In this document: positions 706-64,000 of the stretch, in pieces
Position numbering within the stretch: position 1 is the stretch's first letter
How the letters are laid out: every line of letters starts with the position of its first letter
Assembly (NCBI RefSeq): GCF_964355755.1
Contig: NC_092677.1
Span: forward strand, 10,128,601 to 10,192,600
DNA length: 64,000 nt
Reading direction: 5' to 3'
Source: Antedon mediterranea
Lineage: Eukaryota; Echinodermata; Crinoidea; Comatulida; Antedonidae
Translations under genes and position numbers: made by a program
The notes under the pieces: generated by a model
What the model was told of the DNA's origin: nothing
The model's database searches: none
What the model saw: only the letters and a program-made list of their open reading frames with translations

Positions 706-3700
706 ACAGGACCATACTACGTCAATCTATACTATCGTGAACCCGACCCGAGGCGTCGGTGTGTGGTCATAATGGCCACTTTAAAAGTGGTGTTTACTAA
801 ATTAATGCTAAAAATACGCATTTTAAATTGCTTTAAAACACGTACTTGCCCGCACTGGGCCGGGGCACATTTCTGGAATTCCAGGACCATAGTACGTCAA
901 TCTATACTATTATATACCCGGCCCGAGGCGTCGGGGTGTGGTCATATGGCCACTTTAAATGTGGTGCTATTAATTCTTAGTAAATTAATGATAAAAATAC
1001 GCATTTTAAATTGCTTTAAAACACGTACTTGCCAACACTGGGCCGGGGCAAGTGGCACATTTATGGAATGCCAGGACCATTCTACATCAATCTATACTAT
1101 TGTGAACCCGACCCGGGGCGTCGGGGTGTGGTCATATGGCCACTTTAAAAGTGGTGTTTACTAAATTAATGCTAAAAATACGCATTTTAAATTGCTTTAA
1201 AATCCGTACTTGCCCGAACTGGGCCGGGGCAAGTGGCACTTTTCTGGAAAGCCAGGACCATACTACGTCAATCTATACTATTGTGTACCCGACCTGAGGC
1301 GTCGGGGTGTGGTCATATGGCCACTTTTAAAGTGGTGCTATTATAATACTTAGTAAAATAACACTAAAAAGACGCATTTTAAATTGCTTTAAAACCCGTA
1401 CTTGCCCACACTGGGCTGGGGCAAGTAGCACATTTCTGGAATGCCAGGACCATACTACGTCAATCTATACTATTGTGTACCCGGTCCGGGGCGTCTGGGT
1501 GTGGTCATATGGCCACTTTAAAAGTGGTGTTTACTAAATTAATGCTAAAAATACGCATTTTAAATTGCTTTAAAATCCGTACTTGCCGGCACTGGGCCGG
1601 GGCAAGTGGTATATTTCTGGAATGCCAGGACCATACTACGTCAATCTATACTATTGTGTACCCGGCCCGAGGGGCCGGGGTGTGGTCATATTATGGCCAC
1701 TTTAAATGTGGTGCTATTAATTCTTAGTAAATTAATGCTAAAAATACGCATTTGAAATTGCTTTTAAACACGTACTTGCCCGCACTGGGCCGGGGCAAGT
1801 GGCACATTTATGGAATGCCAGGACCATTCTACATCAATCTATACTATTGTGAACCCGACCCGAGGCGTCGGGGTGTGGTCATATGGCCACTTTAAATGTG
1901 GTGCTATTAATTCTTAGTAAATTAATGCTAAAAATACACATTTGAAATTGCTTTTAAACACGTACTTGCCCGCACTGGGCCGGGGCAAGTGGCACATTTA
2001 TGGAATGCCAGGACCATTCTACATCAATCTATACTATTGTGAACCCGACCCGAGGCGTCGGGGGTGTGGTCATATGGCCACTTTAAAAGTGGTGTTTACT
2101 AAATTAATGCTAAAAATACGCATTTTAAATTGCTTTAAAATCCGTACTTGCCCGCACTGAGCCGGGGCAAGTGGCATATTTCTGGAATTCCAGGACCATA
2201 CTACGTCAATCTATACTATTGTGTTCCCGGCCCGAGGCGTCGGGGTGTGGTCATATGGCCACTTTAAATGTGGTGCTATTAATTCTTAGTAAATTAATGC
2301 TAAAAATACGCATTTGAAATTGCTTTTAAACACGTACTTGCCCGCACTGGGCCGGGGCAAGTGGCACATTTCTGGAAAGCCAGGACCATACTACGTCAAT
2401 CTATACTATTGTGTACCCGGCCCGAGGCGTCGGGGTGTGGTCATATTGCCACTTTAAAAGTGGGGTGCTATTAATACTTAGTAAAATAACACTAAAAATA
2501 CGCATTTTAAATTGCTTTAAAACCCGTACTTGCCCGCACTGGGCCGGGACAAGTGGCACATTTCTGGAATGCCAGGACCATACTACGTCAATATATATTA
2601 TTGTGTACCCGGCCCGAGGCGTCGGGGTGTGGTCATATGGCCACTTTAAAAGTGGTGCTATTAATACTTAGTAAAATAACACTAAAAATTCGCATTTTAA
2701 ATTGCTTTAAAACACGTACTTGCCCGCACTGGGCCGGGGCAAGTGGCACATTTCTGGAATGTCCGGACCATTCTACGTCAATCCATACTATTGTGAATCC
2801 GGCCCGAGGCGTCGGAGTGTGGTCATATGGCCACTTTAAAGAGTTGTGTTTACTAAATTAATGCTAAAAATACGCATTTGAAATTGCTTTTAAACACGTA
2901 CTTGCCCGCACTGGGCCGGGGCAAGCGGCACATTTCTGGAATGCCAGGACCATACTACGTCAATCTATACTATTATTAACCCGGCCCGAGGCGTCGGGGT
3001 GTGGTCATATGGCCACTTTAAATGTGGTGCTATTAATTCTTAGTAAATTAATGCTAAAAATACGCATTTTAAATTGCTTTAAAACACGTACTTGCCAACA
3101 CTGGGCCGGGGCAAGTGGCACATTTATGGAATGCCAGGACCATTCTACATCAATCTATACTATTGTGAACCCGACCCGGGGCGTCGGGGTGTGGTCATAT
3201 GGCCACTTTAAAAGTGGTGTTTACTAAATTAATGCTAAAAATACGCATTTTAAATTGCTTTAAAATCCGTACTTGCCCGCACTGGGCCGGGGCAAGTGGC
3301 ACATTTCTGGAAAGCCAGGACCATACTACGTCAATCTATACTATTGTGTACCCGACCTGAGGCGTTGGATTGTGGTCATATGGCCACTTTAAAAGTGGTG
3401 CTATTATAATACTTAGTAAAATAACACTAAAAAGACGCATTTTAAATTGCTTTAAAACCCGTACTTGCCCACACTGGGCCGGGGCAAGATGCACATTTCT
3501 GGAATGCCAGGACCATACTACGTCAATCTATACTATTGTGTACTCGGTCCGAGGCGTCGGGGTGTGGTCATATGGCCACTTTAAAAGTGGTTTTTACTAA
3601 AAATGCTAAAAATACGCATTTTATATTGCTTTAAAATCCGTACTTGCCCGCACTGGGCCGGGGCAAGTGGCATATTTCTGGAATGCCAGGACCATACTAC

Positions 3701-6700
3701 GTCAATCTATACTATTGTGTTCCCGGCCCGAGGCGTCGGGGTGTGGTCATATGGCCACTTTAAATGTGGTGCTATTAATTCTTAGTAAATTAATGCTAAA
3801 AATACGCATTTGAAATTGCTTTTAAACACGTACTTGCCCGCACTGGGCCGGGGCAAGTGGCACATTTCTGGAAAGCCAGGACCATACTACGTCAATCTAT
3901 ACTATTGTGTACCCGGCCCGAGGCGTCGGGGTGTGGTCATATGGCCACTTTAAAAGTGGTGTTTACTAAATTAATGCTAAAAATACGCATTTTAAATTGC
4001 TTTAAAATCCGTACTTGCCCGCACTGGGCCGGGGCAAGTGGCATATTTCTGGAATGCCAGGACCATACTACGTTAATCTATACTATTGTGTTCCCGGCCC
4101 GAGGCGTCGGGGTGTGGTCATATGGCCACTTTAAATGTGGTGCTATTAATTCTTAGTAAATTAATGCTAAAAATACGCATTTGAAATTGCTTTTAAACAC
4201 GTACTTGCCCGCACTGGGCCGGGGCAAGTGGCACATTTCTGGAAAGTCAGGACCATACTTCGTCAATCTATACTATTGTGTACCCGGCCCGAGGCGTCGG
4301 GGTGTGGTCATATGGCCACTTTAAAAGTGGTGTTTACTAAATTAATGCTAAAAATACGGATTTTAAATTGCTTTAAAATCCGTACTTGCCCGCACTGGGC
4401 CGGGGCAAGTGGCACATTTCTGGAATGCCAGGACCATTCTACGTCAATCTATACTATTGTGTTTCCGGCCCGAGGCGTTGGGGTGTGGTCATATGGCCAC
4501 TTTAAAAGTGGTGCTATTAATTCTTAGTAAATTAATGCTAAAAATACGCATTTGAAATTGCTTTTAAACACGTACTTGCCCGCACTGGGCCGGGGCAAGT
4601 GGCACATTTCTGGAAAGTCAGGACCATACTACGTCAATCTATACTATTGTGTACCCGGCCCGAGGCGTCGGGGTGTGGTCATATGGCCACTTTAAAAGTG
4701 GTGTTTACTAAATTATTGCTAAAAATACGAATTTTAAATTGCTTTAAAATCCGTACTTGCCCGCACTGGGCCGGGGCAAGTGGCATATTTCTGGAATGCC
4801 AGGACCATACTACGTCAATCTATACTATTGTGTTCCCGGTCCGAGGCGTCGGGGTGTGGTCATATGGCCACTTTAAATGTGGTGCTATTAATTCTTAGTA
4901 AATTAATGCTAAAAATACGCATTTTAAATTGCTTTAAAATACGTACTTGCTCACACTGGGCCGGGGCAAGTGGCACATTTCTGGAATGCCAGGACCATAC
5001 TACGTCAATCTATACTATTGTGTACTCGGTCCGAGGCGTCAGGGCGTGGTCATATGGCCACTTTAAAAGTGGTGTTTACTAAAAATGCTAAAAATACGCA
5101 TTTTAAATTGCTTTAAAATCCGTACTTGCCCGCACTGGGCCGGGGCAAGTGGCATATTTCTGGAATGCCAGGACCATACTACGTCAATCTATACTATTGT
5201 ATTCCCGGCCCGAGGCATCGGGGTGTGGTCATATGGCCACTTTAAATGTGGTGCTATTAATTCTTAGTAAATTAATGTTAAAAATACGCATTTGAAATTG
5301 CTTTTAAACACGTACTTGCCCGCACTGGGCCGGGGCAAGTGGCACATTTCTGGAAAGCCAGGACCATACTACGTCAATCTATACTATTGTGTACCCGGCC
5401 CGAGGCGTCGGGGTGTGGTCATATGGCCACTTTAAAAGTGGTGTTTACTAAATTAATGCTAAAAATACGCATTTTAAATTGCTTTAAAATCCGTACTTGC
5501 CCGCACTGGGCCGGGGCAAGTGGCACATTTCTGGAATGCCAGGACCATTCTACGTCAATCTATACTATTGTGTTCCCGGCCCGAGGCGTTGGGGTGTGGT
5601 CATATGGCCACTTTAAAAGTGGTGCTATTAATTCTTAGTAAATTAATGCTAAAAATACGCATTTGAAATTGCTTTTAAACACGTACTTGCCCGCACTGGG
5701 CCGGGGCAATTGGCACATTTCTGGAAAGTCAGGACCATACTACGTCAATCTATACTATTGTGTACCCGGCCCGAGGCGTCGGGGTGTGGTCATATGGCCA
5801 CTTTAAAAGTGGTGTTTACTAAATTAAAGCTAAAAATACGCATTTTAAATTGCTTTAAAATCCGTACTTGCCCGCACTGGGCCGGGGCAAGTGGCATATT
5901 TCTGGAATGCCAGGACCATACTACGTCAATCTATACTATTGTGTTCCCGGCCCGAGGCGTCGGGGTGTGGTCATATGGCCACTTTAAATGTGGTGCTATT
6001 AATTCTTAGTAAATTAATGCTAAAAATACGCATTTGAAATTGCTTTTAAACACTTACTTGCCCGCACTGGGCCGGGGCAAGTGGCACATTTAAGGAATGC
6101 CAGGACCATTCTACATCAATCTATACTATTTTGAACCCGACCCGAGGCGTCGGGGTGTGGTCATATGGCCACTTTAAAAGTGGTGCTATTAATTCTTAGT
6201 AAATTTTTGCTAAAAATACGCATTTGAAATTGCTTTAAAACACGTACTTGCACGCACTGGGCGGCCGGGGCAGGTGGCACATTTCTGGAATACCAGGACC
6301 ATACTACGTTAATCTATACTATTGTGTACCCGGCCCGAGGCGTCGGGGTGTGGTCATATTGCCACTTTAAAAGTGGTGCTATTAATACTTAGTAAAATAA
6401 CACTAAAAATACGCATTTTAAATTGGTTTAAAACCCGTACTTGCCCCCACTGGGCCGGGGAAAGTGGCACATTTCTGGAATGCCACGACCATACTACGTC
6501 AATCTATATTATTGTGTACCCGGCCCGAGGCGTCGGGGTGTGGTCATATGGCCACTTTAAAAGTGGTGCTATTAATTCTTAGTAAATTATTGCTAAAAAT
6601 ACGCATTTGAAATTGCTTTAAAACACGTACTTGCCCGCACTGGGCCGGAGCAGGTGGCACATTTCTGGAATGCCAGGACCATACTACGTCAATCTATACT

Positions 6701-7290
6701 ATTTGTGTACCCGGCCCGATGCGTCGGGGTGTGGTCATATGGCCACTTTAAAAAAGTGGTGTTTACTAAATTAATGCTAAAAATACGCATTTTAAATTGC
6801 TTTAAAACACGTACTTGCCCGCACTGGGCCGGGGCAAGTGGCACATTTCTGGAATGCCAGGACCATTTATTCTACGTCAATCTATACTATCGTGAACCCG
6901 GCCCGAGGCGTCGGGGTGTGGTCATATGGCCACTTTAAAAGTGGTGCTATTAATTCTTAGTAAATTATTGCTAAAAATACGCATTTGAAATTGCTTTAAA
7001 ACACGTACTTGCCCGCACTGGGCCGGGGCAGGTGGCACATTTCTGGAATGCCAGGACCATACTACGTCAGTCTATACTATTGTGTACCCGACGCGAGGCG
7101 TCGGTGTGTGGTCATATGGCCACTTTAAAAAGTGGTGTTTACTAAATTAATGCTAAAAATACGCATTTTAAATTGCTTTAAAATCCGTACTTGCCCGATC
7201 TGGGTCGGGGCAAGTGGCACATTTCTGGAATTCCAGGACCATACTACGTCAATCTATACTATTGTGAACCCGGCCCGAGGCGTTGGTATG
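706..7290 (+). repeat. Satellite array, 181/190-bp alternating monomers
   Basis: About 35 tandem monomers with the shared core 'ggaccatactacgtcaatct'. Two types alternate. Type A carries 'gtggtgtttactaaattaat' and is 181 bp. Type B carries 'ggtgctattaattcttagta' and is 190 bp. Together they make a 371-bp higher-order unit, visible for example as ggacc anchors at 3879, 4060 and 4250. Each monomer holds the short inverted repeat CCACTTT-N-AAAGTGG and a GC-rich half with 'gggccggggcaagtgg'. The cleanest dimer stretch is about 3860-6060; copies near 6060-7290 are more diverged. The array stops abruptly at about 7290. It looks like a heterochromatic satellite; no coding function is supported. Confidence 0.96.
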
Positions 7291-7979: not shown

Positions 7980-10235
<2,256 letters not shown>

Positions 10236-17945: not shown

Positions 17946-20900
17946 ATGGCGGGCACGACGTCCTTGGAACTGGAAGACATCCTTTCGTCTGAGGTAGATG
18001 AAAGTGCCGTGAGATCACTTGTTGGTTCTTTGGAGTCCCAATTAGCTTCATCAAGCACCATTCCTTCTGGTACTGTGGCTACGGAGACTGCAGGACGCAA
18101 CAATCATGCTAATATTACGTTGAGCACTTCGGCAAACAACATGCAGCCCGTCCAGCCCGCCACAACTACAATTCAAAACTCGCACTCAACCGGGGCTAAA
18201 GAGGTCGTATCTGGACATGTATTTCCAAACAAAACGGTCGTGTCTATAGCTCCAATTCAAGTTTCTAGTCCGCAGGTTTCAACCCCTGGTGTTGTAGTGA
18301 GTACAGAAAATAAACCAGTACAAAAAACCACTGTTCCAACAACTTGTGTAAGAATTATAACACTTCCCACAAGTGGTGGAGGAACTGTTTTGGCTTCTGA
18401 AAACAGCATTGCTACAGTCAACCTTTCAGACTCTGCTAAAAATATTATGAGGCCAAGTAGGACTACACAAGCAATAACACAACAGAGTATAAATCCACAA
18501 ATAGTAACTGGAAACGGAAAGAATGTCATTGTCAGTAGTAACGTGGTTGTTACTTCAGAAAGTAAGCCTACAATAACGTTAACGTCGGGTAAACAACCGG
18601 TTACGTTGACGCAGTTAACTACGGTTCAACCAAATACTGATCCCTCACAACTTGTAACAAACACACAGCCACAATTTGTGCAAACTATTCGCCCAAGAGG
18701 GGCAGTTGATCAAACCGTGACAGTCGGAGTAACAAATACAAGTACGATAGCTACACGGGCGTTAACGCCGAATCCGCAACAAGTTGTAATGCAACCTGGA
18801 GGTCAGATATTGACGCAGCCTGTTAGAATTGCGCCTGGTCAACAGGTCATTGCACCAAGGCCGCAGAACGTTCAAATACGATTACCCGATGGAACAACAT
18901 TACCCCCAGGAGTTGTTCTCATTAAGGACGGCATGGTAGTTGGAAGTACTGCTTCGTTAGGTCAACATGTTACTAGTTCGCAAGGAACAATTTATAGAAC
19001 TGTTCAGGTATAAAATCTGAAATTTGAAATATTTCTAGACCATTTTGTTAGCTTTAAATTGAAGCGGTATAAACAATTTGGCCTTTATTTAAAATTTTGT
19101 AAAGTTGGAAAATTCATTTACACTATCATCAACTTCTCACAGTACTAATACTACAGTAGTATATAACCTGTTCATATTTGAATCATAACTTAAGATCCAA
19201 TGGAAATAAAGAATATTAATCATGTGATGAAAACAAATGTTGACCTACTTTTACTTGACCTTGAATGTTATTGTTTTATTTACCCTTTACAACTCTCTTT
19301 TTGTATTCCCATAACATCAACACTAAAGAACACTTCAGAGTCAGCTTTATTTATTTGTGAAATTTTAAATTAATATCTTGATTTTTAAATTTATTTTTTT
19401 TGTAGGCAAATTAATGTGTAACTTAATTGCACTGCTTTATCAGTCATTTGACTGACTACTGCAGTTTGATTTGAAATAACTTGCAATATTCATTTTTCTG
19501 ATAATTATTGTATTTGTTTTTATTTTTGTTAATAGAGTCCACAAGTTATAACACAGTCTGCAATACGTCCTGCCAATACAATGAGGTTGACTTCACCGGC
19601 TCCTATACAACTTCGAAATATACAAGGACATGGAAACGCAGCCGGTTTACCCGTACGGCCGGCAATGACGGTGCTAACAGCTCCTGGCAAAGGAAACCCA
19701 ACACTTATCAGTGGCTTACCCACTTCTGGGGCTGTTGGTTCAAATACTATAGTAGGTCAGCCGTCTGCTGGCGTGACCTTGACCTCTGCGAACTTGGACA
19801 GTGTAAAAAAATGTAAAAACTTTTTAACGACTTTGATCAAATTGGCGGCGAATGCAAATCAGCCACCGAATACAGTTCAGAATGTGAAGGATTTAGTTCA
19901 AAATTTAGTGGTAAGTTTAAATGGTGCTTTTACAGTACCCTCTGGAGCTCTGTCTACCCTATCAACCTTTATGTGAAAATGAGATGTGCCCATATATGGA
20001 CATGATGATGTCATATCGCTACCATATTTGGGCATATCCTCACCATATTTGGGCACATCAACCTTTTTTGTCACATTAGTTTTATGGTGTAGACAGAGCT
20101 TTAAGCATATAGGACCAAAGGGTTTATGGATCATCATCATATCTACTATATACAGGTATTAATTATATACCATACAATTAATTTAGGACCAAGTATAGTT
20201 CCTGGAGGGCTGGATACACAATTTATAGAAAATTAGGGGTTAGGACTATATCCGGATATTGAAAGACAACTTAGCATCTGAAAGCAAATGTAAATTTTTG
20301 GGTGGGATTATAATTGAGCATTGGATTACTTTGTACTGTACATTGAATGAAAACTATGAGATGTATCATACACACAATACTACAAGAACGGTGCATACAG
20401 TAATCGCAAAATGAAAGTGCTGTTTTGTCTAAATGTGCATACTGTATTTCATGATCTATAAAATCTATGCACATGGATTAGAGGTCCTATTTTATAGTAT
20501 GCTAGTACTAATAGTTATAATATGCAAGAATTGATATTACAAAATGTCATTAACCAGTAAAAAGGGTTAATACACAAATTATGTGTTTGCACTTAAGCTC
20601 TGTCTACAAAAAAAGTGTGATGGGCCAATATATGGTAGTGATGTGCTTAAATATGGTAGTGATACATCATCAGGTCCATATATGGCCACATCACATTTTT
20701 TATCACATAAAGTTTGATAGTGTAGACAGAGCCTTATACTATAAAGACTAAATACTAATATTGGCAGGCCAATCTAATCCAATTTGTTATTATACTATTT
20801 TATTAAAACTTCACTGATTATTTAACTGTTTTGTTGCAGGATGGAAAGATTGAACCTGAGGAATTTACATTGAAATTACAGAAGGAGTTAAAGTCTTCAC

Positions 20901-23900
20901 CTCAACCCTACTTAGTGCCTTTTCTTAAGGTAAGTATCGTAAAACACAACCCATGTCTTAGTGTTGTATCATAGAGGGAATCAAACTTAAAATGTCTTAA
21001 ACTCAACAATTTTAAACATAGAAAACACTCAGTAAAACCTTGTTATTTTCTTCAGATTTGTGTAACTTTGGCTTTGTCCTGATTATTGTAAGGTGGCCAT
21101 TATACCACAAACACACTATAAATAACATACACTTGTAATTTGGCCATAAAAAATTTTGTTAATATTTAAAAATTATTAATATACTTTTTTTATTACAGAA
21201 AAGTTTACCTCTTCTGAGACAGACGTTAAAGGGGCCTTTATTAGCTCCACAGGCGCCAGGAACCTCTATCATGACCCCAGGAGTCGGTGTTGCACAACCT
21301 AACCTCATGTCTTCTGTTGCAACCACCAACCAGAAAACTGTTACTGGACACAAAACCATTAACCTGAATCTCAACCATGTGCAACTGTTACCACAGGGTG
21401 CAGCTAAGAGCCAGTTTATAACACCAGCACCACCTAGGTTACAAGTAAGGCATTACTTGCTACATCAAGATTGTGCTTAATTATTTTGTTTCGAAATATG
21501 GAACTCTTAAAGATCTGTCTACACTATCAAACTAGTTAGACAAAAAAAGTGTCCCAAATATGGTAGTGATATGACATCATCGTGTCCATATATGGGTACA
21601 TCACATTTGATAGTGTAGATAGAGCTTTAGGTATAATTGTGTGTAAGTATGAATTATTGCTGTAAGCTCAATTATACATAATGGTCATTACATAATGACA
21701 AATAAAAATGACAATGCATTTAGAATCATCTACGTCTAATATATAGTATAAACAACAGTCTCTGCAAGGATATTGTGTTCAGTAAACATAGCAAACTGAG
21801 CTATTGTGTGTAGCTAGCTGTATAGAGCTATGTTCACAACAAGATTTGATCCAGTCGGGTTGCTGGAGAAGAAGAGATTGTGAATAGGTGTGCTCATATA
21901 TAGACATGATGATGATGATGACTACCATATTTGTGCATATTACTTTGGTCCTAAAGGGGGTCTCCTTACTAACTGTATTATAACAGCAAAGATTAAAACA
22001 AAAGAGCACTAAGATATTTTCAAGAATTGATCATAACCCTGCCATTCTTTAAAAATTAATAAATCAAATGCTTCCATTTAGGCTCCAACGCCACGAAGTA
22101 TAGCGGGTCAGAATTTGATTCATGCCAACACGCTGGTCAATCACATTCGGGCTGCCGTAAACCCAGGCACTGTGATACTCAACCAGGCAAGGATACAAGC
22201 AGCACATCGAATGTCAGCTGTTGCCGCTAAAGCTGGTGCTGCAGCTACACCACCGAGGGATAAAGGAAATAAACATACCTTCAGGTAAATTAGAATAGTG
22301 TTATTAAAGGCAAACAGTTAATAAAGGGGACATTTTTGAATTCCAAATGTGTCCCTTAAATTATACATTGCTACCATTGAACAAGAGGAAATATATGTTT
22401 TAACACTACAGAAAACAGTTATTAAAGGGACACTTTTGGGTCCCGAATGTGTCCTCTTAATAGAGCTTCTACTGTGTACCATTAAACAAGGAGAAATGTA
22501 TTTGTTAACGCTATGACAAACTGCTATTAAAGGGAAACTGTATTTAAATTATAACACCATTAATACTACTACTATCAATCATTTTATTATCATAGTTATT
22601 ATTATTAGTAGTATTGTTATACTAAATTACAAACTGAAATGATGTTTTTTTCCTAATAGGGATGATGATGACATTAATGATGTGGCATCAATGGCAGGAG
22701 TGAATCTAATGGAAGAGAATGCTCGTATCTTAGCAACAAATTCCGAACTGATTGGTACCCAAATTCGTTCCTGTAAAGATGAAGCATTTTTAGGATCAAA
22801 ACCTTTACATACCAAGATCAATATGTTGTGTGAGTGTTATTATTAATAATTACCCTAGGTTAAACAAAATGTTACTATGGTGGTGATATGTCCAAATATG
22901 GTAGTGATAGGACATCATCACATTGTTAAAGTAATGTTAGATAGTGTAGAAAGAGCTTAAGCCAAGGCCATATGCCTATTATAAATCTCTGTCTAAACTA
23001 TCAAACTAGTTTGACAAAAGAAGTTGATGAAGATGTGCCCAAATATGGTAGTGTTATGACATCATCACATTGTTAAAGTAATGTTAGATAGTGTAGAAAG
23101 AGCTTAAGCCGAGGCCATATGCCTATTATAAATCTCTGTCTAAACTATCAAACTAGTTTGACAAAAAAAGTTGATGAAGATGTGCCCAAATATGGTAGTG
23201 TTATGACATCATCATGTCCATATAGGGGCAAATCACATTTTTTTGTCACATAAAGTTTTGTAAAGTGAAGACAGAGCTTAAGAACTAGATGTCCAGCCAA
23301 ATCACATTAAATAATATTTTTGTTACGTACTGTGCTTTGTTTGAATCACTTTACTGTTTGACTCTATGGTTCTTATAGTGTATGTCTGTGACCTAAACAT
23401 ATTCTGTATATAACAAAATATCATTACAATGTAAAGCTCTGTCTACACTATCAAACTAGTTTAGTGGTATGTGGTATGTCCAAATAGGGTAGTGATATGA
23501 CATCAGACATCATGTTCATATATGGGCACATTTTTTTTTTGTCGCATAAAGTTTGATAGTGTAGACAAGACTTTAACAATCGGGATTTGAACCTATAACT
23601 CATTAGTAATTGTTGTACCCACCTTGCTTACTTTAATAAATATGTTTACCATTTTGTATTTTCTTCATGCAGGTGCTAAGCATGGTCTTGGGGACACAAC
23701 AGCAGACGTTGTTAATCTTATATCACACGCAACGCAGCAGAGACTGAAAGATTTAGTAGAGAAATTAGATGTAGTGTCACTTCATAGGACTGAAATTTAT
23801 AAGGTATACCAAAAGTGTAATGCATCAGAGCCCCTCCTTTGGGACACCCCTGTTCAGGGGACATCATTAAAGAACACTTTGTTGGTTCCTAAATGTGTCC

Positions 23901-34678: not shown

Positions 34679-34787
34679 AAGCTCTGTCTTCACTATCAAA
34701 CTAGTGATGTGTCCAAATATGGTAGTGATACGCCCAAATATGGTAGTGATATGACATCTTCATGTCCATATGGGCACACCAGAGCTT
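34679..34787 (+). mobile_element. MITE-A short copy
   Basis: TA|AAGCTCTGTCTTCACTATCA on the left and 'cagagctt'|TA on the right. Two 'cccaaatatggtagtgat'-like units are kept, but the right arm 'tttgatagtgtaga' is deleted. Confidence 0.85.
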
Positions 34788-41274: not shown

Positions 41275-42090
41275 TTGGAACTTGGAACACATCACCAGAA
41301 TTTGGAACACATCACCAGAACTTGGAACACATCAACAGAATTTTCAACACATCACCATCATTGTGATGCAAACATTAGGCCTACATTGGTTCACATCACA
41401 ATAATTTGGAACACATCGAAGGAATTTGGAACATCAGCATAATTTTGAAAACATCACAGGAATTTGGAACACATCAGCAGAATTTTGATCACATCACCGG
41501 AAATTGGAACACATTAGCAGAATTCTGAACACATCGCCGGAATTTGGAACACATCAGCAGAATTTTTAACACATCATTGTGGTATAAACATTAAATTGGT
41601 TCACATCACCAGCATTTGGAACACATCACCAGAACTTGGAACACATCAACAGAATTTGGAACACATCACCAGAATTTGGAACACATCACCAGAACTTGGA
41701 ACACATCAACAGAATTTTCAACACATCACCATCATTGTGATACAAACATTAGGCCTACATTGGTTCACATCACAATAATTTGGAACACATCACAGGAATT
41801 TGGAACACATCACAGGAATTTGGAACATCAGCATAATTTTGAAAACATCACAGGAATTTGGAACACATCAGCAGAATTTTGATCACATCACCGGAAATTG
41901 GAACACGTTAGCAGAATTCTGAACACATCGCCGGAATTTGGAACACATCAGCAGAATTTTTAACACATCCTTGTGGTATAAACATTAAATTAGTTCACAT
42001 CACCAGCATTTGGAACACATCAACAGAATTTTGAACACATCACAGGAATTTGGAACATAGCAGAATTTGGAACAACATTAAGTTTTCAAC
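41275..42090 (+). repeat. 20-bp minisatellite with higher-order duplication
   Basis: About 35 units of a 20-mer close to 'ttggaacacatcaccagaat', with variants (cag, cacagg, caacag). A larger segment is duplicated within it: 'cattgtgat.caaacattaggcc' at about 41359 and 41733, and 'gtggtataaacattaaatt' at about 41580 and 41974. The two blocks are therefore about 375-395 bp apart. Because 20 is not a multiple of 3, the open frames are phase-shifting by-products. Confidence 0.93.
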
Positions 42091-48408: not shown

Positions 48409-48569
48409 AAGCTCTGTCTACACTATCAGACTTTATGTGACAACAAATGTGATATGCCCATATATGGACATGATGATGTCATATCACCACCATATTTTGG
48501 CATATAACTACCATATTTGGACACATCACACTTTTTTGTCAAACTAGTTTGATAGTGTAGACGGAGCTT
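48409..48569 (-). mobile_element. MITE-A copy
   Basis: Left end AAGCTCTGTCTACACTATCA after TA, right end 'gatagtgtagacggagctt'. The core has the reverse-orientation pair 'tcaccaccatattttggcat' and 'actaccatatttggacacat'. Confidence 0.9.
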
Positions 48570-55100: not shown

Positions 55101-57555
55101 ATTACTCAACACCACAGTACAAACAATTACAATACTTTTGATTATTTCTCAGTTGAGAGGGTTTACCTTCCAAGGCTTCAGGGTGTATTTTATTCTGGCG
55201 TAGTTTGTTGGCTTTGGTTGCTACCGTCTTAAAGATTTGACGAAATCGATCAGTTTTAAATGATTCTTCAGCATCAATACTGTAAAAAATTACAGTTAGG
55301 TCAATTCTCAGCCAAGACTATTTATTGATTTTCACCGGCCCCCTATCTCCAAATCTATCTACACCATTTAAAATCATCACTTTTATTGTCTGAAGCCCTC
55401 TTTTATATTGAAAAGTACATATTATCAAGGGGGAAGGGCAGCCAGCCCAGTTCCCCCACCTCTCCACCCCAAATAAATGATGGGATCAAACTCAGCACTT
55501 CATTTCACCGTTTTTCGGCCCTTTCACCACCCCCACTCTCACCGTTATTTAAATTGATCCGCCACTGATTATGATGGGTAAGAGCCTACAGTATGTGGGC
55601 ACAGTATATTTATCATGGTCTTCGGAAGCTTAGAACAAGAAAGAAACATTACCAGGCGGATCAAAAGAATAACATATAATATTTATATAGTCTGTCAAAA
55701 TATCAAGAGTAGTTCATAATTTCAAAGGGGAGTGCACATCCTAGATCTATCCTGCTAGGTCTACCCCTGATTACTATGCAAACATCAATCGAATCATCTT
55801 ATCAATATGGCTCAGTACCAAACCTGAAACTTCCATCACTGCTGACTAAACTGTTACTGCTACTGATAGATGACAACTTTCTAGCCCATGCTGGACTTAA
55901 AGGTGACAATGGAGTCAATGGCTTTATTGATGACATATCAAAAGATTTCTGGAAAAAAAATGTCACAAAGTTTAACAAAAAAGTGTGATGTGCCCAAATA
56001 TGGTGGTGATATGGCCAAATATGGAAGTGATATGACATCATCATGTCCATATATGGGCATATTACATCTTTTTGTAACATAACGTTTGATAGTGTAGCTT
56101 TAGAGTAAGCATTATACTTACACTGATACAGTTCAGTCCGTCCAATGACTTTTGATGTTTAAAAGTATACCTTGGTGAGAGAAGGTCAGGGGTCGCATCT
56201 GATAGTGGGAAGCTGTGTCGTTTGCTGAGGACCATACCAGGAAGTGGAGGAATTGTTAGAGACAAATTAGAACTGCAAGATTAAAAACAAAACATTTCTA
56301 TATGAAATGTAGTAAATGAAAAACATGATTTATAATGTTTGATGATTAAAATCTCACCTATTGAAACCTGAATGTGGAGTAGATGATTCGTCGCATGTCA
56401 GTACCGTATCCTGTGTCTGGCTTCGTGGTACGGTTTGCAGGGATCTTGTTCCCGGACTTAGAGCAAGAGCTCCTGCGACTGTGGCTGTTGGTAGTGATAG
56501 CATGGAAGACATGCTTGCTGTATCCAATAAGCCTGGAATGTCCCATCCTGAAGTTTTGCAAAAATAATAATATTATATTACAGAGAAATCAGATAATACC
56601 GTTATTTCAAATATTGAAATGGATTAATCAAAGTAATTAATTAGGTAGACAAATTGAATTGCAAGGTTAAACATTCCTTTAAGCTTGGTTCCCACTAGAA
56701 CGTAACACAAGAACGTAAACGCAATGCAAGCATTTTAACCAATGACAAGCGAAGTTATAGACAGTTAGCAATCACAAGCGAATAAGCCATCGCTTGTGAT
56801 TGGTCAATTCACTTGCGTTGCGTTACGTCCTTGTGTTGCGTCACTAGTGGGAACCACGCTTTAACTGTATTAAGACAATTCAGAAAAGGCCATACAGAAT
56901 AGAATATAGTTAAATTACATAAGTGATTAAGTGAATAATAATAATAATAACAATATTGAAGTCACAATAGGTCTTCCTTGTATACATTATTACTGTTGAT
57001 TACTTATTATATTGATAAATTATAATTTCAATGATGATATTACAACTACAACCTATGACGGTATTCATCATTCGCACTTGGGCTAAGGGAAACACCCTTA
57101 AAATTAAGACAATCTCCTATCTAAAGTAAATACAATTTAAAGGAAATACTTATTACTTAGTATTTATTGAGAAAAATACTTAAATATTTAAGGGAAATAT
57201 CTCACACTTGTGTGATTGGTGAATACAGCCACTAGTTTATTTCGAAAACTAGTTTTAACCCCATCAGTGTGAAAGGGGCTTGGCAGCACCCAATCCTATC
57301 TCTCTACATGATTGCATCAATACCTTCTTTTCCTTGTGGGTGACCGTACTCCAAATTTAACTCATCATCCTGAACGAAACCATGGTTTATTTTGCTAGGA
57401 AAACTGAATCCATTAGAATGTTTAGTTTTCTTAGGTGAGGAGAGGCAAATTGTTGGTGTGTTTGGGCTTGGGGGTGAAATTCCATTGATAGAAAATTTTT
57501 CCGAGGGCGATCGAAAGACATGAAGTTCCAAATTGTTCGGCCGTGAAGAAGTCAT
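49192..57555 (-). CDS. CNGB: Cyclic-nucleotide-gated cation channel beta subunit
   Basis: Seventeen exons join in frame on the minus strand: 57555-57324, 56547-56358, 56272-56122, 55948-55824, 55279-55167, 54846-54694, 54550-54330, 54121-54071, 53902-53742, 53352-53224, 52857-52716, 52346-52187, 51691-51594, 51406-51323, 51131-51022, 50578-50432 and 50242-49192; 1105 residues. S1-S2 lie in exon 7 ([37 protein letters not shown]), S3-S4 in exon 9 ([22 protein letters not shown]), S5 in exon 10, and the pore and S6 in exon 11 ([25 protein letters not shown]). The C-linker is in exons 12-13 and the nucleotide-binding domain in exons 14-16 ([39 protein letters not shown]). The FFNAVLQ motif after the domain is beta-type. 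The protein is a plasma-membrane channel that works with alpha subunits. The acidic C-tail is unusually long. Confidence 0.95.
50677..50875. mobile_element. Short TIR element in CNGB intron 15
   Basis: Ends 'acagtggcgtaac' and 'gttacgccactgt' are perfect 13-bp inverted repeats enclosing about 170 bp without an ORF. The flanks 'ctatta' and 'ctacta' are similar and may be a diverged target duplication. It is not related to MITE-A or MITE-B. Confidence 0.8.
51880..51955 (-). mobile_element. tRNA-derived SINE head in CNGB intron 12
   Basis: On the minus strand, 'ggagctgtagcttggtggtt' and 'aacatgcttgcc' look like a tRNA A-box half, and 'ccagggttcaatcctgacat' looks like a B-box. The cloverleaf cannot be completed at the 3' end, so it is a SINE-type relic and not a gene. 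Confidence 0.65.
53435..53745 (+). repeat. Dispersed repeat C cluster overlapping CNGB exon 9 edge
   Basis: Several units in series ('caccacagccaaccactata', 'attaaagggacacatgtttt', 'tttgggtcccgaaaggtatc', 'ctctattaaggggttcattt'). The cluster reaches the donor of CNGB exon 9 (53742), so the donor side of this intron starts directly in repeat sequence. Confidence 0.68.
54983..55066 (-). mobile_element. tRNA-like SINE head in CNGB intron 5
   Basis: On the minus strand, 'cagtggtctagaggtatgaa' is followed by 'ggtcgtgggttctagtccta', which are A-box and B-box-like. The order and spacing fit a tRNA head of about 75 bp. No intact acceptor stem is seen. Confidence 0.65.
55962..56100 (+). mobile_element. 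MITE-A copy in CNGB intron 3
   Basis: The core 'cccaaatatggtggtgatat' and 'gtccatatatgggcatatta' is intact, and the right end 'gtttgatagtgtagctt' precedes TA. The left terminus is lost. It sits immediately next to the exon 4 acceptor (exon begins at 55948), so MITE sequence forms part of the branch-point region. Confidence 0.8.
56682..56860 (+). mobile_element. MITE-B, complete 179-bp copy in CNGB intron 1
   Basis: 'agcttggttcccactagaac' to 'cactagtgggaaccacgct', with TTA on both sides (56679-56681 and 56861-56863). It is the third copy of exactly 179 bp and is nearly identical by eye to the 33482 and 38306 copies. Confidence 0.93.
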
Positions 57556-60370: not shown

Positions 60371-63300
60371 ATGGCGGTAACCGCCACGTCCGAAGAGGTG
60401 GAATACCTCACAGATATTGATCGTATAGTAGCTGCTTTTGACAAATTATGCCAGGAAGAGGTATGTATTAAAAGAATAATAAATAGTGCTTGTGCTGGAG
60501 CAATTGTTTTATTATTGTTAAGTTTTAAATTTGATTTTATTAACGATGATTTTTCTAGGCCTAGCCAGAGTTGAGGGGGTGGGTGTGAGCGGTCGTCATG
60601 TGTTGTGTAGCTTGCAGGGAGGGGTGTTCCGGCGCTAGGCCTAGGGATAATTTACTAGGCCTAACTAACTACCACACTTTTATTTAACTCATGTAGCTAT
60701 ATAGGCCTATACGCACATATTTCTTGTTGGAAGAAGAACCATTATAAAATTCCGTCCTAAATAATGCATTTGACTTTGTTAAATTGTTAATTATTATTTT
60801 TATCTAGCCTAATTCTAATTCAACCTGTTAGTGGCGGTTTCATCGCTGTTGGTTGACAACTGAATAAAATAAAAATAAAATAATAAAATAAGACTGAAAT
60901 AAATTGCCCAACACCATCCATTGCACCAGAGAGTGTATTGTGTCTATACTCCCCGCGGCGCCTTATATTGGGTTTGTATTGTTATTCTCATTAATTATAG
61001 CAACAACTAACAGAAGAAATTGATGAGATGATTGATGAGCAGGGAAATTTAGAGGGCAAGATGAGCACCTTCCAGCGTATTGTGTAAGTTATTAAAAGCT
61101 AAATAAAGGATTAACCTTACTATACTAACATATCACACTAGGCCTTATATTATACTAAGCGTACATATAACGCCAAAGGCACACAGAACAAATTATGCAC
61201 CACCCAGTAATATATTTGAAACGATAAAATTTATCAATATACCAGTTTATACCAGAGTAAATACTGTACTGTACCCTATTGATTTCTACTGTTGGATTGC
61301 TATACTATTTTTGTTTTTTTCAATCTTGTATTGTATTCTTTATAGTCCTAGCTTAACAGATGTGCATTCTGACTCAACTAATCTTGGAGATATGATATCA
61401 TTTACATCTGACCTTGCAGAAAATGTCAGCGGAAAAGTGAGGATATTAGATCTAGCAAAGGTAACATATGGAAATAACTAAAAATACCAAAATGTATTGA
61501 CTTGGTACTTTGTCTTGTACCAAGGATGTACCACAAGTCTGTCAGGACAGTGTATATATCATTGGCAACCAAGGATGTAACACAAGTCTGTCAGGACAGT
61601 GTATACATCATTGGCAACTTTAGAATATGACTTTATAACACATATTCTGATTGTATTCTTGCAATTTGATTGGTCAATTACGTATCGCGTGTCATTTGGA
61701 ATTAGCCCTCTCTAAAAAAATTGATATCTAATGGTGATAATGATCACACTGTCTGAATTTTGAGAATGTTTAGTTTGCCATTTACGATGGATAAATTGAA
61801 TAAAAGTAGGTATGTTATAAATAAATAATGAATATTCTATATTCTTTGAATTGAAAAATTAAGTGCAATATTTTCAACTTGGCTCTTCCTTGTTTTAAAA
61901 TAGAGCAGTCAGTTTTTCAACTCATGAAATATTTTCCATCCAACTCTAAGAATTAATTTTACCATTCTTAATGTAATGCACTTGTCAATTGTATGACCCA
62001 CTATACGACCACCGGGAGAGGTGAGTCATTTTTCCGATGTGCGTCATACTTTTGAATACCGTGACGCACCCGTGCGTCAAAAAGGTGACTTACCTTTAGG
62101 TGACCATGACGCACCCATTTTGACGCACTGTGACCATGTTGTTTATGATATGGTGGGTGGTAAAGTGACGGACATTGACACACCTTGTTCATTGATGTGA
62201 CGTACCATCTAGGTTTTTTGACGCACCCCTGCGTCAGTAATTATTTGTAAATGACGCACCCATGACGCACCTTTCCCGGGGGTCGTATAGTGAGTCATAC
62301 AATTGACAAGTGCATAATGATGGGATTATGATAATAAGAGGATTTTCTGATGATAAAAACAACCAAATCACTTTTTTATAGAGCCGCGTACAAGCTGCAA
62401 AGCACAGAGTAAATGATGTGTTGGATCTTAAGGTTAGTTCTTTTTGTTTTATCATTCCAGACCAACTAAGCATTCTGTTTCAATAACTTGTCTTAACAAT
62501 TCTCCCATTTAACGTAATTCCCTATGCTGATTAATGACTATTAAAAGATTACAGCAGTCTAAATATAAAAGAATTTACTTAAAAATATCCCTTATTTTCT
62601 TAAGCTCTAAATGAGATGTGCCAAAATATGGTAGTGATATGACATCATTGTGTCCATATATGAGCACATCACATTTTTTCATATAAAGTTTGATAATGTA
62701 GACAGAGATTTATAGAAAATGACCAAGGGAAAACTAAATGACTATTAGGAAAAACACATTTAAACTAAATAAATAATTAATATTAACTCATTTTTTGCCT
62801 CTGTAGTTTTGTACAGATGGTGTTCAGACAGCACTACAGTCAGAAGATTTTGAGAAAGCAGCAGCACACATCCATCGATTCCTTTCACTCGATGAGAAAG
62901 TTTTAAAACAGTTTGCTCCGGAAACGAAAGAAAGTAAGCAGTGTTTTATGCAGTTTGTCAGAGCAAGGGACTACATACTTTAAATTGTTTAGAGCATTAT
63001 AGCAGCTGGAAAGAAAAAATAAAAACTGATCAAACTGTAAATTGTCTCTCTAACTAAAGATCATTTTTGGTCTTTTATTAGAGGTCAAATATACATTGTG
63101 TTTAGCCTGAGTGATTTCTAATGAATGTACTGTAATAAAGGTTTCTCTATATAATAACTAAGGACCACCCTTTTTGGAGTCGTTTTGAAACCTAAACCTT
63201 ACCAACCGTACTGGTGGCTACGGCCCTGCCTTAAATTAGAGACATCTGATGTTTTACATGATTGCTTTATATACAGCATTTAAACTCTGGACCATCTTTA

Positions 63301-63503
63301 TCATTTTAGGTGGTGGACTAGATGCGTCTTTGCAGGTGCTGCGGGAGGCTGAAAAGAGACTACAAACACTAGTTCATGAGAAATTTGATGAAGCAGTTGG
63401 TACGAGTGATCTTGCATCGGTTGAACGATTTTTCAAAATCTTTCCTCTTATTGGTCTGAAAGACGAGGGCTTAGCCAAGTTTTCCTCTTACTTAAAAACA
63501 CAG
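60371..63503 (+). CDS. COG4: Conserved oligomeric Golgi complex subunit 4, N-terminal part
   Basis: Six exons in frame: 60371-60460, 61001-61083, 61346-61460, 62382-62432, 62807-62933 and 63310-63503, giving 220 residues; the gene continues past the right edge (human COG4 is 785). The start AAGATGGCG has a strong context. The N-terminal coiled-coil region runs through [16 protein letters not shown] and [20 protein letters not shown]. Family landmarks are [59 protein letters not shown] and [16 protein letters not shown]4 belongs to lobe A of the COG tethering complex, acts in retrograde transport within the Golgi and binds SNAREs and Sly1 in known species. Intron 3 holds a complete MITE, intron 4 a MITE-A copy, and the intron after exon 6 a minisatellite that contains a copy of the exon's end. 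Confidence 0.95.
61520..61620 (+). repeat. Two-copy tandem repeat in COG4 intron 3
   Basis: 'accaaggatgtaccacaagt' with 'ctgtcaggacagtgtatata' and 'tcattggcaa' is repeated once directly with few changes, at a period of about 50 bp. Confidence 0.88.
61977..62314. mobile_element. 338-bp TAA-flanked MITE in COG4 intron 3
   Basis: Terminal inverted repeats of about 45 bp begin TGCACTTGTCAATTGTATGA and end TCATACAATTGACAAGTGCA. TAA stands on both sides (61974-61976 and 62315-62317). The subterminal DNA has many 'gacgcaccc' words in both orientations. The 3-bp TAA duplication fits PIF/Harbinger. There is no ORF of note. Confidence 0.92.
62603..62710 (+). mobile_element. MITE-A copy in COG4 intron 4
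   Basis: TA flanks 'agctctaaatgagatgtgcc' on the left and 'gataatgtagacagagatt' on the right. Part of the left inverted repeat is deleted. Confidence 0.82.
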
Positions 63504-63529
63504 GTAAGCTATCACAACGACTAAACTTA

Positions 63530-64000
63530 CCTAGTTATACCTAGGTAAACTAGTTATACTGTAGTTTACCTAGTTATACTATAGTTTACCTAATTATCCT
63601 ATAGTTTACCTAGTTATACTATAGTTTACCTAGTTATACTGTAGTTTACCTAGTTATACTGTAGTTTACCTAGTTATACTGTAGTTTACCTAATTATCCT
63701 ATAGGTTACCTAGTTATACTGTAGTTTACCTAGTTATACTGTAGTTTACCTAGTTTTAGATGTAGTTTATCTACTGTAGTTTAGCCAAGTTTTCCTCTTA
63801 CTTAAAAACACAGGTAAGCTATCACAACGACTAAACTTACCTAGTTATACTGTAGTTTACCTAGTTATACTGTAGTTTACCTAGTTATACTGTAGTTTAC
63901 CTAGTTATACTGTAGTTTACCTAATTATCCTGTAGGTTACCTAGTTATACTGTAGTTTACCTAGTTATACTGTAGTTTAGCTAGTTTTAGATGTAGTTTA
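63530..64000 (+). repeat. 20-bp minisatellite in the COG4 intron after exon 6
   Basis: Tandem units of 'acctagttatactgtagttt' and close variants ('acctaattatcctataggtt') run from about 63530 to 63777 and from about 63836 to the window edge. The two blocks are separated by a copy of the exon 6 end. The array continues out of the window. Confidence 0.95.
63781..63850 (+). pseudogene. Exact copy of COG4 exon 6 end with splice donor
   Basis: The 70 bases at 63781-63850 are identical to 63471-63540: the last 33 coding bases of exon 6 (encoding [10 protein letters not shown] at the end), the donor CAG|GTAAGC, and the first intron bases up to the start of the minisatellite. The copy lies 310 bp downstream, embedded between minisatellite blocks. 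No proper acceptor precedes it, so it is unlikely to be a working exon. Confidence 0.93.

Follow-up and report, generated by a model that had tools for sequence, protein, structure and literature searches.

Duplication of an exon 6 end and its splice donor within a minisatellite of COG4 intron 6

Introduction

How does the end of a coding exon, complete with its splice donor, come to stand a second time inside a minisatellite of the following intron, and what would the second donor mean for the transcript? Intron 6 of COG4 raises this question in the stretch of DNA analysed here (the window; 64,000 nucleotides, 36% GC). Minisatellites that lie over exon-intron boundaries have been described as "mirages" in the lancelet genes Adh3, globins BflGb6 and BflGb9, troponin C (TnC) and PGBD5 (PMC3087553; PMC3902484). 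In BflGb9, it is the 3' boundary of exon 2 that is duplicated (PMC3087553). RT-PCR of the Adh3 and globin mirages revealed regular splicing that was apparently undisturbed (PMC3087553), and the troponin C and PGBD5 mirages were reported to be spliced normally too (PMC3902484).

Results

The gene was delimited by an 11-exon spliced model that begins at 60371 and keeps a consistent reading frame throughout. The encoded protein is COG4, as a previous sequence-only reading of this DNA had proposed, with matches to Pfam PF08318 (E 2.5e-82) and PF20663 (E 3e-31), that is, COG4_N and COG4_m; a comparison of the protein with solved structures gave no match. With numbering started at the exon that holds the first ATG, the segment at 63310-63503 (plus strand, 194 nt, phase 1 in and phase 0 out) is the sixth coding exon, which agrees with the number given to it previously. 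In the spliced model, donor 1 (CAG/GTAAGC, 63504-63509, plus strand) opens intron 6, which spans 63504-64617 (1,114 bp); the window ends at 64000, before the end of the intron. Intron 3 of the same gene holds a 49-bp tandem duplication (61519-61618 of the window; two copies, 96% matches).

The last 33 nt of exon 6, the donor and the first 37 nt of intron 6 (TTAGCCAAGTTTTCCTCTTACTTAAAAACACAG/GTAAGCTATCACAACGACTAAACTTACCTAGTTATAC, 63471-63540, plus strand) are repeated at 63781-63850 on the same strand, 310 bp away and exact over 70 bp, just as had been claimed. The claim of a second donor at 63813 was right about the donor but not about its coordinate: 63813 is the last copied exon base, and the GT of donor 2 (63814-63819, plus strand), whose CAG/GTAAGC matches that of donor 1, starts at 63814 (the first GT is at 63504). 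The 33 nt of shared exonic sequence are far beyond chance, since 500 shuffles of the remaining intron shared at most 13 nt. A pattern scan of the whole genome (354 Mb in 18 contigs, up to 3 mismatches) detected two occurrences each of the exon end and of the intron start, none of them away from the COG4 locus. Because there are no other copies in the genome, the duplication is local rather than dispersed.

The copy bears on splicing in several possible ways. Given the published lancelet precedents, we take the route from 63504 to 64618 as the default, and normal splicing from donor 1 most likely persists. The exonic part of copy 2 (63785-63813, plus strand) is also a candidate 3' splice site that abuts donor 2, for it places a pyrimidine tract and CACAG directly before the donor (TTTTCCTCTTACTTAAAAACACAG/GTAAGC), thereby forming a possible acceptor-donor pair, AG/GTAAGC. 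Since the copied exon end carries this tract and CACAG, joining donor 1 to the AG at 63812-63813 would regenerate GTAAGC, and a second splice from there to 64618 would leave the mRNA unchanged; copy 2 would then act as a ratchet point (i.e., a zero-length exon). The acceptor score of this AG is 6.17, within the 4.8-10.1 obtained for the gene's ten own acceptors (leave-one-out) and among the top 5% of 282 intronic AGs, although the score model is a small one, built from those same ten sites. No clear branch site was found 15-55 nt upstream of the copy-2 AG, where the only YTNAY, at 45 nt, has AGs between it and the acceptor; three of the gene's real acceptors are also without a YTNAY in the scanned stretch, and at a fourth AGs lie between every YTNAY and the acceptor. 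Furthermore, long introns are where known ratchet points abound (PMC8605326), whereas this intron measures only 1.1 kb. We therefore consider it unlikely that copy 2 serves as a ratchet point.

Donor 2 might alternatively be used alone, so that exon 6 would be lengthened by 310 nt, to 63813. Its identical CAG/GTAAGC, together with 33 exonic and 37 intronic nt of shared context, would favor such use, and the resulting transcript would be truncated and prone to decay, thereby reducing COG4 output: read-through had been predicted to stop, and the extended frame indeed reaches a TAA after 226 codons (...KTQVSYHND*), the 310-nt extension holding 9-12 stops in each of the three frames. However, the extended exon would measure 504 nt instead of 194, and RT-PCR of lancelet mirages that contain copied splice signals showed normal splicing (PMC3087553; PMC3902484), which makes functional use of donor 2 doubtful. 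A cryptic exon starting at the junction TTTAG/CC was rejected; other AGs lie close upstream, and the exon would be 29 nt long and frame-shifting.

The 20-bp minisatellite that had been seen around the copy nearly fills intron 6 and extends beyond what the window showed, to about 64571 (TRF and unit decomposition). The array is not uniform. Its 20-bp units (CTGTAGTTTACCTAGTTATA), each of which within the window contains TAG as the sequence-only reading had stated, are grouped in blocks that close with two variants, one of 21 bp (...GTTTTAG) and one of 14 bp (ATGTAGTTTACCTA). Block ends lie at 63773, 64004 and 64199 and are followed by groups of 20+20+14. Close to the beginning of the first array block (63541-63780, plus strand) lies a 19-bp rearranged stretch (CCTAGGTAAACTAGTTATA), and the block finishes in the 21+14-bp pair TTTTAG/ATGTAGTTTATCTA. 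The second array block (63851-64000, plus strand) runs beyond the window and ends at 64014. The exon end of copy 2 sits exactly at a block start. Further higher-order repeats at 64005 and 64200, spaced 195 bp apart and identical over 111 bp, show that block duplication is ongoing.

Two candidate explanations for the array were rejected. The first was a dispersed repeat as its source. Besides the COG4 array, the 16-mer GTTATACTGTAGTTTA is present in a 40-bp array of partial similarity on contig C5 and at eight single sites, and at these other sites no source element was seen: the eight single sites have no flank in common with the COG4 array, and two of them, both on C4, have matching flanks. 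The second was strong secondary structure of the array as the cause, for which folding of 63505-63800 was no better than that of shuffles (z 0.09). The C5 array that shares GTTATACTGTAGTTTA is a minisatellite of 46 copies on another chromosome, at C5:4788621-4790460 (L010:1122-2961).

Several other repeats were observed in the window. A satellite with a period of about 190 bp (371-bp double period, 35 copies) occupies 707-7283 and recurs in the opposite orientation at 1-664, and another 20-bp minisatellite (GAATTTGGAACACATCACCA, about 40 copies, 132-bp higher-order period) lies at 41278-42074. The motif CCCAAATATGGTAGTGATATG forms 21-bp duplications at 9408-9450, 20012-20059, 20617-20663, 34702-34751, 48480-48529 and 55985-56034, is also found within a 147-bp repeat at 22885-23214, and looks like a dispersed element.

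The 70-bp copy is not a lone insertion; a larger tandem duplication begins with it. Alignment of 63471-63780 with 63781-64014 yielded 231 columns with 4 mismatches, a count that other gap placements can shift by one because the aligner opened a gap inside the exact 70-bp copy, and 79 bases of internal gap, which correspond to three units plus one 19-bp rearranged stretch. This alignment supports the previous statement that coding sequence was copied together with the repeat. One and the same 21+14-bp variant pair closes both blocks, and beyond it the older array resumes with CTTAGTTATA; TTA is common to exon and array where they meet. The breakpoints of the duplication thus lie in the exon on the left and in the array on the right, with ordinary array turnover following.

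The age of the duplication had been overstated. Exact identity had been read as proof that it is very recent; however, the whole block differs by 4/231 and by 79 bp in length. By our own arithmetic, the probability that none of 4 random changes in 231 columns falls within the 70 is about 0.24, and 0/70 differences are compatible with the 1.7% of the whole block and allow up to about 4% divergence. As 0/70 is indistinguishable from 1.7%, the claim about age has to be softened: on an evolutionary scale the duplication is recent, yet its age may match that of common polymorphisms in a diverse animal population.

Errors in repeat assembly more commonly collapse copies than create new, diverged ones. 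An artefact that doubled the boundary through an unmerged overlap or repeat error is very improbable here: tandem repeats are prone to misassembly, and the lancelet genome draft had one mirage wrongly assembled (PMC3087553), but the differences between our two blocks in length (79 bp), in 4 substitutions and in array variants, together with a coherent flanking higher-order repeat, make misassembly unlikely.

Discussion

The anatomy of intron 6 and the duplication within it are directly observed, and from them we infer an origin. Very probably, a minisatellite has spread over an exon-intron boundary in the manner of a mirage, so that the exon end was drawn into the array's higher-order repeat. 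The intron 6 array would expand and contract, whether by unequal crossing-over, by slippage or by template switching. During a single event of this kind, a nascent or recombining strand may have jumped from an array unit ending in TTTA back to the TTA in exon 6 that lies 33 bases before the donor, where forward copying would have restarted; the product would be exon end, donor, intron start and array in a tandem duplicate, whose array lengths later turnover would have shifted by 79 bp. The 3-base microhomology, TTA, is a weak pointer to any of these mechanisms. Every block begins with an entire exon end and donor, so that later crossing-over between the blocks would still leave exon 6 and its donor intact; near neutrality and variable length are therefore expected, and the COG4 copy is most likely neutral variation.

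The lineage of the genome affects how far this result reaches. A single Hox cluster was found at C2:7827794-8206141, with 12 genes that include a 9/10-like gene and three further posterior genes, the second-last posterior gene being inverted. No Ubd-A extension was found in the Hox genes of this cluster. Lancelets have 15 Hox genes, and the C2 set looks like that of an ambulacrarian, so that the genome is probably not from a lancelet. A search for GFP gave no match, but its controls also went undetected. Should the ambulacrarian reading be right, then mirages are no lancelet peculiarity. More generally, intronic minisatellites can acquire exon ends with complete splice signals, probably harmlessly, and thereby hold raw material of the kind proposed for intron gain. 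That a mirage duplication outside lancelets has created a ready ratchet point, with removal of intron 6 in two steps and a new-born zero-length exon that could seed an intron or exon, is improbable.

By its structure, the COG4 locus is a mirage. Both 63471-63780 and 63781-64014 start in exon 6 and include the donor, and the copies bear CAG/GTAAGC at 63504 and 63814. The published mirages considered here all come from lancelets, a lineage that forms no part of the structural definition. Within the one assembly analysed, block length differs by 79 bp. Like the lancelet mirages, the locus combines a tandem duplication across an exon-intron boundary that includes a splice signal with higher-order turnover, and like BflGb9 it duplicates the 3' boundary of an exon. 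It differs in that the boundary copy heads a block of 20-bp units and that there is one extra copy only; the gene is also different, and the lineage probably so.

Ratchet points in recursive splicing likewise have an acceptor-like AG adjoining a donor GTAAG within an intron (PMC8605326), whereas the COG4 intron is short, has no clear branch site and owes its second site to exon copying. Intron gain through tandem duplication of AG/GT stretches is a published model with cases in vertebrate ATP2A1 and potato RdRp (PMC4974935). COG4 shares with it an intragenic tandem duplicate of a stretch containing AG/GT, but this stretch straddles an existing boundary and its copy lies inside an intron. Under the ratchet reading, copy 2 would have the layout of the Rogers model, with both ends of a new 310-nt intron coming from the duplicated AGGT stretch.
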